DNA of 20,443 nucleotides from a virus. Shown here piece by piece: positions 3,498 through 20,201 of the stretch (positions within the stretch are counted from its first letter, which is position 1; the number at the start of each line of letters is the position of its first letter). The stretch lies in the IMG/VR virus record IMGVR_UViG_3300009466_000021, positions 1 through 20,443 of that record; one strand, 5' to 3'. The notes under the pieces are model-generated. The model did no database searches and had not been told where the DNA came from. It was given only the letters and a program-made list of their open reading frames with translations. Both the position numbers and the translations under genes were made by a program.

Positions 3498-4784
3498 CTA
3501 ACCAACGGCTTTTGTCAAAGCAGTTTCTAGTTCTGGCAACAGTTGTCTCCAAGTGGTGCGGCCTCTATGGGCGTCCAATCTATCATTGTATTTTATAAAA
3601 CACTCTTGTAGATATTTTTCTGTGTCTTTGTCCAGTGTGTTCTTCCTCAAATTTTCTATTTGATTTTTATAAAGAGTTATTATTGATTTGTAATTTTCAA
3701 ATGAATCAATTTTCTGTTCCAATTTGTCTGCCACTTTCGATCTGTATTCGCTTGGCGCTATATCATAGTTACAGATACGTGGATACCAGACCTGGGCCAG
3801 CCAAGATACATCAAAACTATTCCCCCATTCACCGTCAGCAAAATCCACAAACCACTCCAGCATCTCATCCAACTGATCTATGTTCAATAGTTGTATGGCT
3901 GGGCTGAACACAATTTTTCCATTGTTGTGTTGATTTAGTAAAGATTTATAGATATTTAAATTTTCTTTTATCTTGTTAAAATTGCTGGGATATCTAATAT
4001 ATTCTGTCCTCTCACCAATGCCGTCTATGCTGGCCCATATGGTCCAACTTTTTAATTTGGGCAATCTTTCCAGCATCTTGGGATGAGTGTTGGTAAGATT
4101 CGTTACTATGGTAAATTGTTTTTCTTTGAGAGTACCTTGCTGATCACAATGATCAAATAATTCATAGAACTCGGGGATGACTGTGGGCTCACCTCCTATA
4201 ACTGTCAACTGAGTTATGTTTTCACTGACGAAAGAACTTAATTTGTTTTTGTTCTTTTCGTTCTCAAACCATTTATATTCTACGGAAAGGTTATTGGTCC
4301 AGTTGTTGACATTGCCACTTTGTTTGACCACCCAACTTAAAAAATCTTTATCCTGCTCCCCAATTTCTAATAGTTCTTTGCCTACCTGATTGGAATAGTT
4401 CTGTGAACACATCCTACATTTTAGATTACATACATTTCCGTAATGCAGTTCCATAGAGCTGGGCATCACAGATACTCGTCCGTCTGATTCTGTGTTGTTA
4501 AAATTTTGTTCTTTGTCTGCTGTGGATCTCATAGATGCATATCCTCTAGACTCCTGTTCCATGCATTTTCTACATTCTGTTACTTCCTCCCCGCGTATCA
4601 TTTTGAGTCGAGTGTTTCGCACGTGCTCGCTGTTCCACACGTTTTCCAATGACGTGTCGTTGACATGATAACGATTCCCTGCGTGGTTGTTGATGTTATC
4701 ATTGGTGGCACAACAGAAACGTAAACTGCCACTCATGTGAATGTATTGGTGATCCCATAATTTAGAACAATAGGTTTTACTCAT
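3498..4784 (-). CDS. Radical SAM protein with N-terminal twitch/SPASM-like domain
   Basis: 428 aa from ATG 4784; an in-frame GTG at 4793 is the longer option. The radical SAM cluster motif CxxxCxxC is CNLKCRMC at residues 119-126, followed by GGEPT (SAM-binding GGE motif) and SIDG. Unusually, the cysteines of the auxiliary cluster come first: CSKLWDHQYIHMSGSLRFCC (residues 6-25), then SLENVWNS and CRKC (71-74). This order is that of the N-terminal-twitch radical SAM family found widely in marine phages. The enzyme would cleave S-adenosylmethionine to make a 5'-deoxyadenosyl radical; its substrate is unknown. Its start codon overlaps the end of a second radical SAM gene by 8 nt (ATGAGTAA), so the two are translationally coupled and probably work in one pathway. 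Confidence 0.85.
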   Translation of the reverse strand: MSKTYCSKLWDHQYIHMSGSLRFCCATNDNINNHAGNRYHVNDTSLENVWNSEHVRNTRLKMIRGEEVTECRKCMEQESRGYASMRSTADKEQNFNNTESDGRVSVMPSSMELHYGNVCNLKCRMCSQNYSNQVGKELLEIGEQDKDFLSWVVKQSGNVNNWTNNLSVEYKWFENEKNKNKLSSFVSENITQLTVIGGEPTVIPEFYELFDHCDQQGTLKEKQFTIVTNLTNTHPKMLERLPKLKSWTIWASIDGIGERTEYIRYPSNFNKIKENLNIYKSLLNQHNNGKIVFSPAIQLLNIDQLDEMLEWFVDFADGEWGNSFDVSWLAQVWYPRICNYDIAPSEYRSKVADKLEQKIDSFENYKSIITLYKNQIENLRKNTLDKDTEKYLQECFIKYNDRLDAHRGRTTWRQLLPELETALTKAVG

Positions 4785-5850
4785 ATTTTCCACACACGTT
4801 TTGACAAGTCACCAAACGATAGTCTTGTTGCTGTCCTATAATGCCTTTCCATATTTCTTTAAAATACTGCCCATTTAAAATTTCTTCCAGACTGCTATAT
4901 TTTATATTGACGCTGTTGTAATCTTTAATTATATTTTTACTTTCGTGGATTTTTAAATCTCCTAACCAACAACAAGGACTTACATTGCCATTAGCGTGTA
5001 AAAATATTTCAACATTGTGTTTCATAAAAGAATTACATACAATTTTTGTCGAATTTTTTTTAATATCTTTTACTTTTATATCTTTGGTATTGTTAACATT
5101 CAACACTTTCTCAACTGGCGGGTTTTCTATATCTTTTACTTTTATATCTCTGGTATTGTTAACATTCAACACTTTTTCAACCGATGGTTTTTCTAAGTCA
5201 TATCCGTCTACTTTTATTTTTGTTTTTTCGATCCAATTTCCATCAGAATCAAAATCATTCCACCTTGTAGTTGTTTTTTTGTTGAAAGATTTAAAACCCA
5301 TTTTTTCACTTAATTGTTTGGCCAAATCTACTTGATGTTGGTTATGTTTAAAAACTAAAAAATCCCATTGTGCGTGGCCGCCTGATTTTATAAAACTTTC
5401 GGCGTTAGACATCAATTTACCCCATTTAACATTTCTTCTATATAGATGATTTGTGTCTTCGAGCCCATCAATTGAAAAAATAATATCTACTCCAATTTTT
5501 GCCATTTCTTTATAAAATTCTTCACTTCTGGCCCCTCCGTTGGTGTTAATACTTAACTTTATTTTTTTATTTTTGCTCCTGATAAAATCATAAATTTCAG
5601 CACAGTCCGGATTCATGGTTCCATCTCCTAAATTACCACAGGACCTAAATATTCTTAAATTGCTTATTATTTTTTCTCCAATCTTATGTTTAATATCATT
5701 CAAAGTTGTATGACTATTATTTGTTAGATCTTTTAACAGATTTTGATTGCTATCAAACCTTGCACACATTGGACAAGCGGCATTACAAAAATTAGAAAGT
5801 TCTGCGTTGATATGAGTTATGTTGTCGATTGAAATATAAGGAGTAGACAC
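4777..5850 (-). CDS. Radical SAM/SPASM-type enzyme
   Basis: 357 aa from a GTG at 5850, 14 bp after the upstream stop; no ATG is available nearby. Residues 22-29 carry CNAACPMC, the 4Fe-4S site that binds SAM; GDGTMNPDC (core strand 2 region), INTNGG and SIDGLED follow as in radical SAM cores. The C-terminal part has LHANGNVSPCCWLGD, SLEEILNG and CQNVCG, the layout of a SPASM/twitch auxiliary cluster. Substrate unknown. A linker of about 44 residues (219-262) is a 22-residue unit repeated twice; see the repeat entry. It shares an overlapping junction with the next radical SAM gene. Both would act in the cytoplasm; a peptide, sugar or nucleotide substrate are all possible. Confidence 0.85.
   Translation of the reverse strand: MSTPYISIDNITHINAELSNFCNAACPMCARFDSNQNLLKDLTNNSHTTLNDIKHKIGEKIISNLRIFRSCGNLGDGTMNPDCAEIYDFIRSKNKKIKLSINTNGGARSEEFYKEMAKIGVDIIFSIDGLEDTNHLYRRNVKWGKLMSNAESFIKSGGHAQWDFLVFKHNQHQVDLAKQLSEKMGFKSFNKKTTTRWNDFDSDGNWIEKTKIKVDGYDLEKPSVEKVLNVNNTRDIKVKDIENPPVEKVLNVNNTKDIKVKDIKKNSTKIVCNSFMKHNVEIFLHANGNVSPCCWLGDLKIHESKNIIKDYNSVNIKYSSLEEILNGQYFKEIWKGIIGQQQDYRLVTCQNVCGKYE
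5063..5194 (-). repeat. In-frame 66-bp tandem duplication inside a radical SAM gene
   Basis: Two adjacent 66-bp units (5063-5128 and 5129-5194) differ at 6 positions (60/66 identical). Each encodes 22 residues containing VEKVLNVNNT and DIKVKDI. The unit length is a multiple of three, so the frame is kept and the linker between the core and the C-terminal cluster domain is lengthened. The high identity suggests a recent slippage event. Confidence 0.95.
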
Positions 5851-17056: not shown

Positions 17057-17126
17057 AACATTATATTTAATTAAATTTACAAGTGAATGTCTTTGTTTCA
17101 CGGTACTGTTATTAGTTTGGTGAGAT

Positions 17127-17210
17127 AAGTTGTTAAGGTTAAGTTGTTAAGGTTAAGTTGTTAAGGTTAAGTTGTTAAGGTTAAGTTGTTAAGGTTAAGT
17201 TGTTAAGGTT
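17127..17210. repeat. Six perfect tandem copies of a 14-bp unit
   Basis: AAGTTGTTAAGGTT occurs six times without gap or mismatch from 17127 to 17210. The array sits in the space between the divergent MKITEII and MKISEII genes and is not coding: the unit is not a multiple of three and two of its frames meet stops. Options are iterons of an origin, a cooperative operator, or a slippage-grown spacer. Confidence 0.95.
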
Positions 17211-17229
17211 TAATATGATGTTTAATGAC

Positions 17230-18047: not shown

Positions 18048-18075
18048 TTGACGGATCTTGCTACTATATTATTAT
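18048..18075 (+). promoter_or_regulatory. sigma70-type promoter for the 59-aa gene
   Basis: TTGACG (18048-18053), 16-bp spacer, TATTAT (18070-18075), giving a leader of ~20 nt with SD AGAGGTG before ATG 18103. The divergent gap 17976-18047 holds nothing else I can identify. Confidence 0.55.
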
Positions 18076-18102
18076 ATAAGAAACAAAAGAAAGAGGTGTA
18101 CC

Positions 18103-18282
18103 ATGAAAATATCCCGATACATAACCCATCCACAATGTTTTTTTCCTGATCAAATTGATTATGAAATAAAACGCCTAGAGTCCTTGCCAAAATTGACAGC
18201 TCGAGATCAACAGTATCTTGACATCTTGATCTCCAAGCAATCGGCCGAGGCACTTTGGAACAAAATCCGTATCAAGAAATAA
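18103..18282 (+). CDS. Small early protein of unknown function
   Basis: 59 aa from ATG 18103, preceded by SD AGAGGTG 5 nt upstream; the frame is open from 18058 but that start lies in the promoter. Sequence: MKISRYITHPQCFFPDQIDY, then helical KRLESLPKLTARDQQYLDIL and a basic end. One Cys; no membrane span. Its TAA begins the 62-bp promoter module that drives the nuclease gene, so it is the first gene of the early plus-strand run. The mix of helices with basic patches would suit a small regulator or host-interaction protein, but no family is recognised. It is not an obvious restriction controller (no helix-turn-helix motif seen). Confidence 0.65.
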   Translation: MKISRYITHPQCFFPDQIDYEIKRLESLPKLTARDQQYLDILISKQSAEALWNKIRIKK

Positions 18283-18341
18283 GTCATTGATTTTATTAGG
18301 TTTTTTTTAGATTGGCTTATTTCACCAAATACCTTATAATG
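18280..18341 (+). promoter_or_regulatory. Repeated early promoter module, copy 1
   Basis: This 62-bp stretch is 50/62 identical, without gaps, to 20115-20176. It starts with the TAA of the previous gene, has a T8 tract, then TTGGCT (18312-18317), a 17-bp spacer and perfect TATAAT (18335-18340). The -10 ends only 6 bp before ATG 18347, so the nuclease mRNA would be leaderless. The hairpin arm present in copy 2 is degraded here. Confidence 0.75.
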
Positions 18342-18346
18342 TAAGT

Positions 18347-19243
18347 ATGGAAAATAAAATTGTTAAATTTATTGAACAAATTAGGACCATCGCCAATCAA
18401 GGTGGAATCAGTGAGAAGACTAGCAATCACAACTTAAAAGGATCAAAGAGTCTTGAAGCAGTGGCAGGGCAGATCATGGATGACTTAGGTTTTCCTCAAT
18501 GGATTGCCTACAATCATCTGCAGAAAGGGGAGGATCCCGATTCAGAATTTCCACGCTTACCAAATAAACATCTTAGAAAAGAATATTTTGATATTCTGAA
18601 GAATTACCTTTTTGATAAATTACCTAAGGATGGAAAACACTTTGTCAAAGACGATGACAACCTCATAGGACCCGGAGGAGATGATTGTTTCATTCTACAA
18701 CCAGGTGGTACTCAATACTCGGTAGATATGATTGTGAAATACAGAGGCTATTTGATATATTTTGAATTCAAAACAGGCGGCGGTTCGATGCCAAAGTATA
18801 ACGACAGATTTCCAGCACCTTCAACTATTGTTTTATTTGTTTCGAGTCACAAAGGAAAGACAATGAAAACAGGAGAGGTTGAGCAGATCGATTTAGGTTA
18901 TTATCGTGGAGGGCCTAAAAAAGGCCAGCATAGAGGGTACAAAGAAAAACAAGTGACCATTGCTAACCCCTTCCTCAAAGATAAAATGCGAGTGTTTTTC
19001 CAAGGAGATATCGTTAGTATCTCCAACTATTCAAAGTTTCCTAAAGTTATAGAAGAAATAAATGCTCTTGCCAAACAAGTGATTGAAAAAGCAGGATTTG
19101 ACCAAACTGTGGCTTCGATTGGTTTGAGACCAATCATGAACCAGAAACTAGGCAATATCAACAAGCCCTGGAAGGCCAATGGCGTTGTAAAAACTTGCGA
19201 AGAGCGAGAACAAGATGTTATAATTAAGTTGAATGAATTATAA
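18347..19243 (+). CDS. Putative type II restriction endonuclease (PD-(D/E)XK)
   Basis: 298 aa from ATG 18347. The nuclease core is visible as Asp127 in TQYSVDMIVKY and Glu140-x-Lys142 in YLIYFEFKTGGG, i.e. D-x12-E-x-K on two strands, followed by STIVLFVSSHKGKT. The N-terminal ~95 aa (SKSLEAVAGQIMDDLGFPQW) and the basic middle part (GPKKGQHRGYKEKQ) may handle DNA recognition. Its 3' end overlaps the start of a DNA methyltransferase by 11 bp, the usual layout of a type II restriction-modification pair; the length also suits such enzymes. It would cut unmethylated host or competitor DNA at a site protected by the partner. It has no SD and a -10 box 6 bp away, so translation may be weak or leaderless. 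The fold is inferred by eye. Confidence 0.7.
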   Translation: MENKIVKFIEQIRTIANQGGISEKTSNHNLKGSKSLEAVAGQIMDDLGFPQWIAYNHLQKGEDPDSEFPRLPNKHLRKEYFDILKNYLFDKLPKDGKHFVKDDDNLIGPGGDDCFILQPGGTQYSVDMIVKYRGYLIYFEFKTGGGSMPKYNDRFPAPSTIVLFVSSHKGKTMKTGEVEQIDLGYYRGGPKKGQHRGYKEKQVTIANPFLKDKMRVFFQGDIVSISNYSKFPKVIEEINALAKQVIEKAGFDQTVASIGLRPIMNQKLGNINKPWKANGVVKTCEEREQDVIIKLNEL

Positions 19244-20117
19244 AATCCTACAAGGTGATAATATTGATCATTTAAAACAATTACCAGAGAATTCTTTTGA
19301 TGCCTGTATCACAGATCCGCCCTATGGTATGGATATGGAAGATTGGGATAGCAAGGTTCCGGAGTCGGATACTTGGCAAGAAGTCCTAAGGGTTTTGAAG
19401 CCGGGAGCATTCTGTCTTTCATTCTGCTCAACAGACCTCTATCACAGGATGGCATCCAATATGGAACAAGGCGGATTCCGTATCCTCGATATGATCAATT
19501 GGATAGTGACAACGAAGATGTCTAAAAACAATAGATTGAAACCAGCCCACGAGCCCATAGCGGTGGCGCAGAAGCCGTTCAAAGGAACGATCAAATCTAA
19601 TTTCGAAGAGTGGGGTGTTGGACAGATCAATATCGAAAAGGCCAAAGTGCCATGGGACGGCAAACCACCCACAGGATGGTTGAAAGGCGGATCTAAGAGA
19701 AGAGTCTTTGGCAAAGGAAAGACCAACAAAGCCAGCAAGGAACAAACAGGTACAGAGGACGCAGATCCAACAGGTAGATATCCATCGAACATAATAGGAT
19801 ATCTAGATGATCCCGAACATCAGAAGTATTTTTATGCTCCTAGAGTCACTAGAAAAGAAAAAGGTGAGTATAATGATCATCCAACGGTTAAACCAATATC
19901 TCTGATGAGATATTTGACTAGGGTTTATTCTCCCTTAGGCGGACAGATATTGGATCCATTCAACGGCACAGGCACCACAGGCATAGGTAGTCTAATAGAA
20001 GGAAGGTCATATACAGGTATAGAACTTTCTGAGCATTATGCTGAAATATCTAAAAGAAGAATAAATGATTATTTGAAAGATTCTGACCAGTTTTCCAAAC
20101 TGTTTGATTACGAATAA
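19233..20117 (+). CDS. DNA methyltransferase, beta class (N6-adenine or N4-cytosine)
   Basis: 294 aa from ATG 19233. The catalytic motif IV DPPYG is at residues 28-32 (ACITDPPYGMDMEDWD), followed by VLKPGAFCLSFCST. Motif X-like HPTVKPISLMRYL and the SAM-binding motif I DPFNGTGTTG (241-250) come near the C-terminus, then GRSYTGIEL. Motif IV before motif I defines the beta class. The variable part between (~100-200, with KPPTGWLKGGSKRRVFGKGK) is the likely target recognition region. DPPY alone does not separate N6-adenine from N4-cytosine. Overlap with the upstream nuclease gene (11 bp) suggests coupled translation and a shared recognition site. Stop codon TAA begins promoter module copy 2. Confidence 0.9.
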   Translation: MNYKILQGDNIDHLKQLPENSFDACITDPPYGMDMEDWDSKVPESDTWQEVLRVLKPGAFCLSFCSTDLYHRMASNMEQGGFRILDMINWIVTTKMSKNNRLKPAHEPIAVAQKPFKGTIKSNFEEWGVGQINIEKAKVPWDGKPPTGWLKGGSKRRVFGKGKTNKASKEQTGTEDADPTGRYPSNIIGYLDDPEHQKYFYAPRVTRKEKGEYNDHPTVKPISLMRYLTRVYSPLGGQILDPFNGTGTTGIGSLIEGRSYTGIELSEHYAEISKRRINDYLKDSDQFSKLFDYE

Positions 20118-20176
20118 GTCATTGATTTTATTGACTTTTTTTGGTGGTTGACTATTTTACCAAATACCTTATAATG
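20115..20176 (+). promoter_or_regulatory. Repeated terminator-promoter module, copy 2
   Basis: Begins with the methyltransferase TAA. AAGTCA (20116-20121) pairs with TGACTT (20132-20137) and is followed by a T7 tract to 20142: an intrinsic terminator. Then TTGACT (20148-20153), a 16-bp spacer and perfect TATAAT (20170-20175). Start of transcription near 20182. It is 81% identical to 18280-18341 and insulates the next gene from the restriction pair. Confidence 0.75.
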
Positions 20177-20201
20177 AAACTATAACAACAAGGAGGTGTA
20201 A

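Follow-up and report, generated by a model that had tools for sequence, protein, structure and literature searches.

Restriction-modification systems carried by viruses are already known, and several resemble the locus analyzed here. In chloroviruses and marseilleviruses a virus-borne nuclease gene lies beside an adenine methyltransferase gene, with a patchy distribution among related viruses, and an action on host or rival DNA has been proposed or demonstrated for these systems (PMC7253447). Chlorovirus restriction enzymes contribute to the degradation of host DNA, whereas the related marseillevirus systems spare host DNA and are able to cleave that of rival viruses (PMC7253447). Complete restriction-modification systems are described as nearly absent from phages in a passage of PMC10734518 that cites Oliveira et al. 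2014, and the same paper reports the temperate phage NrS-3, whose complete type II pair (Nph3I, RGATCY) was verified in vitro. Here we analyze a nuclease gene and a DNA methyltransferase gene at positions 18,347 to 20,117 of IMG/VR record IMGVR_UViG_3300009466_000021, a virus record of 20,443 bp that is probably a fragment and whose full length is referred to below as the window. Judging from sequence, the two genes are likely to form a type II restriction-modification pair of a T4-like marine phage, and the phage family of such pairs appears to be undescribed.

The present pair shares with the chlorovirus and marseillevirus systems a putative nuclease encoded beside an adenine-type methyltransferase, a likeness that lies in gene arrangement and not in sequence comparison. 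Unlike those systems of eukaryotic viruses, it is set in a phage context, and the leader hairpin found in the present family is a further difference. NrS-3 likewise carries a complete type II pair in a phage, but by its description it stands apart in being temperate, in infecting a Campylobacterota host from the deep sea and in having a nuclease annotated as BglII-like, whereas the pair analyzed here belongs to T4-like phages and to a widespread lineage. The phrog_18119 proteins of phages S-SKS1 and S-CAM4 are members of the same nuclease family and have the same methyltransferase downstream; however, they represent a short form (about 176 amino acids) with a leader hairpin, while the window form has 298 amino acids and an insertion but no hairpin. 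In the pairs of phage Pt11470_1 and Mycoplasmopsis cynos, a homologous nuclease lies directly beside a methyltransferase or its homologue, although the methyltransferase is of a different type and the gene order in the phage is reversed.

The initial annotation, made from the letters of the window, had described a complete-looking type II pair that would be unusual in a T4-like marine phage. The first part of this description stands, while the second needs softening: the family has at least 58 non-redundant members in viral contigs, and two cyanophages with sequenced genomes, S-SKS1 and S-CAM4/ACG-2014j, carry it as well, with the nuclease labelled "hypothetical". A literature search that excluded most subscription journals found no publication that names the pair.

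The nuclease family and its predicted fold

Both genes are intact and lie on the plus strand. Their open reading frames (ORFs), the length of the 298-residue protein and the 11-bp overlap are as initially annotated, and the following features carry the argument:

18347-19243, plus strand: nuclease gene, 298 amino acids, a putative restriction enzyme of the PD-(D/E)XK family and relative of phrog_18119 (hhalign family match)
18725-18772, plus strand: catalytic core codons read from the sequence, with D127 at 18725-18727, E140 at 18764-18766 and K142 at 18770-18772
18851-18985, plus strand: insertion of about 45 residues (nuclease residues about 169-213), an alignment gap with approximate limits, absent in most relatives
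19233-20117, plus strand: beta-class N6_N4 DNA methyltransferase gene, 294 amino acids, with DPPY at 19314-19325 and DPFNGTG from 19953
19233-19243, plus strand: 11-bp overlap of the nuclease stop and the methyltransferase start

Searches of Pfam, NCBIfam and PADLOC with the window nuclease alone were negative, and its sole PHROG match was to phrog_18119 (E 2.5e-4, residues 115-172). With the window nuclease as the query, tblastn gave no match among 50,697 phage records and 72,556 plasmid records, and a close-relative scan of viral contigs returned no relatives. A viral scan with query A1, whose confirmation step relied on the diverged window protein, found none, and neither did a scan of genome contigs with query A2. 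A link to the family came from P0002, a "hypothetical" protein of 176 amino acids assigned to phrog_18119, whose gene overlaps the S-SKS1 methyltransferase gene and which matched the window nuclease at E 6e-6 in one pairwise comparison. Scanning viral contigs with P0002 yielded 41 loci, and scanning with the methyltransferase clade of the window yielded divergent nuclease relatives that bridge to the window protein. One of these relatives, L065, matched the window nuclease at E 8e-9 with phmmer, and a family profile of 26 sequences, built without the window protein, matched it at E 1.1e-16 over 138 columns with hhalign. A search with the pattern CAACGGGC..AGTCCGAG gave many chance matches in unrelated contigs, the nuclease being present in 40 of the 80 contigs fetched. 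P0001, encoded between the nuclease and methyltransferase genes of S-CAM4, had been considered as a candidate nuclease and was ruled out as a member of phrog_2615.

In an alignment of 98 nucleases, from loci that are partly dependent (58 after collapse at 95% identity), the residues corresponding to D127, E140 and K142 of the window protein are invariant in 98/98, as are Q118, P119, G121, P149, N152 and R261, and E37 is present in 97, the remaining sequence having a gap there. Together with the family profile match, this invariance removes the doubt that the D...ExK motif, placed correctly by the initial annotation, arose by chance. These comparisons place the window nuclease, very diverged as it is, in an unannotated family that comprises phrog_18119 and its relatives and that appears undescribed so far as our searches could show.

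The fold was predicted for a relative. With L065 as the first of 42 sequences, the model reached a predicted local distance difference test score (pLDDT) of 91.3 and a predicted template modelling score of 0.87, and this L065 model suggests a PD-(D/E)XK fold for the family. Foldseek gave no match to the L065 model below E 0.001 in the PDB. In a VIA-align comparison, PD-(D/E)XK-type nucleases made up 48 of the 50 entries listed, the other two being human Rep15 complexes; among the entries listed were EcoRV, I-Ssp6803I, Hjc, RecU, NhoI, HincII, SwaI and HhaI. EcoRV was the best match among restriction enzymes (Z up to 6.8, root-mean-square deviation 3.3, 117 residues), its Z tied with those of other PD-(D/E)XK nucleases and of one human Rep15 complex. 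With EcoRV and other PD-(D/E)XK restriction enzymes the family shares the predicted fold and an invariant helix glutamate in addition to D...ExK, the EcoRV counterparts being E45, D74, D90 and K92. However, identity to EcoRV is only about 10%, Z stays below 7, and PDB sequence searches (queries A1, A2 and A5) gave only chance-level matches. Sub-threshold profile matches to RmuC, Hjc, NERD, PDDEXK_5, Cas4 and CARF-PDDEXK point in the same direction as the fold. Among the viral structures of BFVD, the nuclease model matched best to G9E696, an uncharacterized protein of the algal virus Micromonas pusilla virus SP1 (E 9e-6, 22% identity).

Pairing with methyltransferases

The methyltransferase of the window matches Pfam PF01555 (N6_N4_Mtase) at E 2.5e-30, and its motifs run from DPPY (residues 28-31) through the target region to DPFNGTG (residues 241-247), an order that indicates the beta class, as initially annotated; the protein is classed as adenine-type. 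Relatives of it occur in the Synechococcus phages S-SKS1 and S-CAM4 and in Marine virus AG-345-F15. Aligned relatives are 56-71% identical to it, with DPPY invariant and DPF-G-G conserved. The pair shows three features of a type II system: two separate, adjacent genes conserved as a pair, an intact nuclease motif with the fold modelled in a relative, and the catalytic and S-adenosylmethionine-binding motifs of a methyltransferase.

Given that loci selected through the methyltransferase are biased for pairing, pairing was counted only in nuclease-selected loci. The methyltransferase lies downstream of the nuclease in 59 of the 60 contigs selected in this way, not all of which are independent. 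In the first set tblastn found it in 40 of 41, the remaining contig (L038) stopping a few codons past the methyltransferase start; in the second set, from the divergent branch, it is present in 18 of 19. The 11-bp overlap recurs in L054, L056, L057, L058 and L092, and in some phages one gene (phrog_2615 or a 465-residue protein) lies between the two, as in S-CAM4 with its one extra gene. Our restriction-modification reading is founded on this pattern of a conserved PD-(D/E)XK nuclease family that almost always adjoins this methyltransferase.

Six related methyltransferases have no nuclease upstream despite room for one (L002, L003, L051, L052, L055 and L059), including those closest to the window protein (about 70%), at L002:6001-6885 and L003:6001-6885. 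A family profile search of the L002, L003, L051, L055 and L059 records, run without a positive control, gave no nuclease match. Six methyltransferases alone against one nuclease alone would be the pattern expected if the nuclease does harm when its methyltransferase is missing. The gene that overlaps the methyltransferase gene from upstream in L051 and L052 resembles, by eye, a clamp-loader ATPase.

Distant homologues of the nuclease adjoin a different type II methyltransferase (PADLOC MTase_II PDLC03274) in Helicobacter phage Pt11470_1 and in the jumbo phages XbC2 and Kaldavass, all with the methyltransferase gene preceding the nuclease gene. The Kaldavass nuclease was assigned from a tblastn match (E 0.009) and synteny with XbC2. 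In Mycoplasmopsis cynos, the nuclease homologue precedes, with an 11-bp overlap, a methyltransferase-like protein that is 44% identical to the Helicobacter phage methyltransferase. The nuclease homologies are supported by hhalign (E 9e-21 for Pt11470_1 and 6e-16 for M. cynos), whereas BLASTP found no similarity between the methyltransferases of the Helicobacter phage and the window. The distant pairs lie at L264:1854-3474, L265:1295-2917, L266:1268-2890 and L267:2441-4115, the methyltransferases in L266 and L267 being annotated as hypothetical. These pairings with an unrelated methyltransferase suggest that the nuclease family accompanies type II methyltransferases even when the partner has changed.

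The initial annotation had named three observations that would speak against restriction-modification, namely a non-nuclease fold, changes at D127, E140 or K142 among homologues, and homologues located away from methyltransferases. In each case the result pointed the other way, and its restriction-modification reading is well supported by comparison. Several points nevertheless weigh against that reading. Cleavage and methylation are predictions from comparison, as is the existence of a common recognition site. The model computed with the window protein first was poor (pLDDT 46.7) and was not used, and all structural Z values are below 8, which alone would be insufficient to identify the fold; because each Z is middling, the fold is deduced from the agreement among the listed entries taken together with the invariant motif. 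A 56.7-kb record, L246, has the nuclease but no match to this methyltransferase. The window nuclease has an end branch of 5.5 in the tree and a best identity of 27% over 132 columns, and such extreme divergence beside a methyltransferase that is 56-71% identical to its relatives raises the possibility that its role or its partner has changed. Either the protein evolved very fast or it was gained in a separate event from a remote branch of the family. As an observation on L246 (L263:4342-4986, minus strand), the nuclease there is followed by a 191-residue ORF, possibly a different partner.

The divergence of the window nuclease, the lack of a Shine-Dalgarno sequence before it, and the six contigs that keep the methyltransferase alone, among them the two closest to that of the window, would also fit a methyltransferase that works by itself as a shield against host restriction next to a decaying or repurposed nuclease remnant. 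We consider this improbable: the 298-codon ORF is intact, the 11-bp overlap is retained, and all ten family-invariant residues are kept at about 25% overall identity, which is unexpected under decay. Far less probable still is a role for the nuclease in phage replication, as a junction resolvase or repair nuclease with a methyltransferase beside it by chance. Hjc and RecU do appear among the structural matches at similar Z, but chance would hardly place the same methyltransferase beside the nuclease in 59 of 60 nuclease-selected contigs, and an unrelated type II one in other phages and a bacterium; moreover, tblastn with S-SKS1 and L065 queries found the family in just 9 records of cyanophages or marine phages in the collection, a patchiness unlike that of a core replication gene. 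We give equally little credence to a homing-type mobile nuclease from which the methyltransferase protects the phage. The homing enzyme I-Ssp6803I, itself of the PD-(D/E)XK type, is among the fold matches, and the pair in the window lies between the two copies of a 71-bp direct repeat. However, there was no sign of an intron, an intein or an interrupted gene, what is conserved is the nuclease together with the methyltransferase and not a free-standing nuclease, and the repeat holds a promoter-like sequence while its core is not found in L003.

Proposed role and expression of the pair

If the two genes do form a restriction-modification pair, the methyltransferase would mark one short site in the phage DNA, and the nuclease would cut the same site when unmarked. 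DNA injected from the virion would already be methylated and its new copies hemimethylated, so that the phage genome would be protected as soon as infection begins. The nuclease would then cut unmarked DNA of the host, or DNA of a rival phage. Whether the main role would be breakdown of the host chromosome for nucleotides, as in chloroviruses, rather than exclusion of rivals is a question within this same reading. Host breakdown is a serious possibility that we place somewhat short of probable: the contribution of chlorovirus enzymes to host DNA degradation (PMC7253447) and the presence of nrdA in the window speak for it, whereas the sparing of host DNA by the related marseillevirus pairs, which can cut rival virus DNA (PMC7253447), and the patchy occurrence among cyanophages speak against it.

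Because cultured Synechococcus phages carry this unannotated nuclease family with its methyltransferase, as do dozens of contigs from marine phages, the idea is open to immediate testing in a phage-host system that already exists. Were the pair active, abundant marine phages would have in it a weapon against host or rival DNA, and its nuclease would represent a new restriction enzyme family, possibly with a new RNA-hairpin timing of a restriction enzyme. Some phage methyltransferases would then have to be re-read as half a weapon and not as pure shields.

The signals around the pair in the window are:

18278-18348, plus strand: left copy of a 71-bp direct repeat, containing ACCAAATACCTTATAATG
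18312-18340, plus strand: sigma70-like promoter TTGGCT-17-TATAAT, a consensus match only
19195-19224, plus strand: possible internal promoter of the extended -10 type (TTGCGA-18-TATAAT), immediately ahead of the methyltransferase ATG, which may be chance
20113-20183, plus strand: right copy of the 71-bp direct repeat, ahead of the next gene (20202)

The -10-like TATAAT of the first promoter ends 6 nucleotides upstream of the nuclease ATG, no Shine-Dalgarno sequence is visible, and the predicted transcription start coincides with the ATG, making the weak or leaderless start of the initial annotation a reasonable reading. The nuclease starts of L031, L086 and L094 resemble this arrangement and, given the closeness of TATAAT to the ATG, the nuclease mRNAs of these three loci and of the window may be leaderless. 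The internal promoter may be due to chance, since 55 sites with promoter patterns were found against 38 (standard deviation 7) expected in shuffles.

In the cyanophage branch, nuclease genes are instead preceded by a small hairpin with flanks CAA...AGA, usually 7-8 nucleotides upstream of the start codon, for which Rfam had no match; the window nuclease has none. Examples upstream of nuclease starts are:

L014:273-302
L029:2200-2229
L026:3962-3991
L068:4362-4399

The hairpin has 8 pairs, 94% paired across 24 distinct leaders, and four of the pairs are changed on both sides; pair 16-28, for instance, is seen as GC, AU, UA and CG. Its covariation score of 0.525 exceeds those of all 500 shuffles and of all slid versions, a count that is not a probability given that the leader sequences are related. 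The hairpin is nearly confined to this nuclease gene. In four phage genomes of 103-208 kb that carry it (G001, G002, G003 and W01), the best match of the hairpin model was the nuclease leader, and there were no others with E below 0.1, whereas G007, of the divergent branch, has an unexplained weak match (E 0.012). A single hairpin sequence fetched 9 contigs from 2.9 million, and the nuclease was immediately downstream in all 9. Around 3992-4012 of L158, a CGGGC hairpin sequence before an ATG is not followed by a member of the nuclease family.

The leader hairpin appears to be undescribed, and a natural guess is that it acts as a translational operator. Tentatively, and with more doubt than confidence, we propose a widespread T4-like phage lineage with offensive restriction-modification, in which a dedicated RNA operator hairpin would hold the nuclease back and so time cutting against methylation with no need of a controller protein. 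The hairpin would be bound by one of the two enzymes or by some other protein of the phage, and window-type members would use leaderless nuclease mRNAs instead, to the same effect. That a weak nuclease start delays cutting, as initially suggested, is plausible, and the leader hairpin in relatives gives it indirect support. Such a delay may be unnecessary, however, since a virion from an earlier round should bring DNA that is already methylated; for the same reason, the nuclease-first order without a controller gene need not endanger the phage. There is no ORF between the nuclease and the methyltransferase in the ORF list of the window, and the nearest ORF upstream of the nuclease (18058-18282, 74 amino acids) may still be a controller gene.

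The two copies of the 71-bp repeat are 80% identical, flank the gene pair and share the identical 18-mer ACCAAATACCTTATAATG; a search of the window that tolerated up to 3 mismatches found no further copy. The repeat could serve both sites as an early promoter, or it could mark the boundary of a cassette.

Other genes of the window assign the record to the T4-like marine phages: nrdA shares about 70% identity with its homologues in cyanophages and Pelagibacter phages, and a DUF6267 protein has its best matches in Pelagibacter phage HTVC008M and cyanophages. The label "lytic" for this phage is a suggestion from the T4-like gene content. The window also contains a tandem array of the 14-mer TAAGTTGTTAAGGT at 17112-17223, between two divergently placed ORFs, and two neighboring radical SAM/SPASM proteins are encoded at 3498-5850 on the minus strand.
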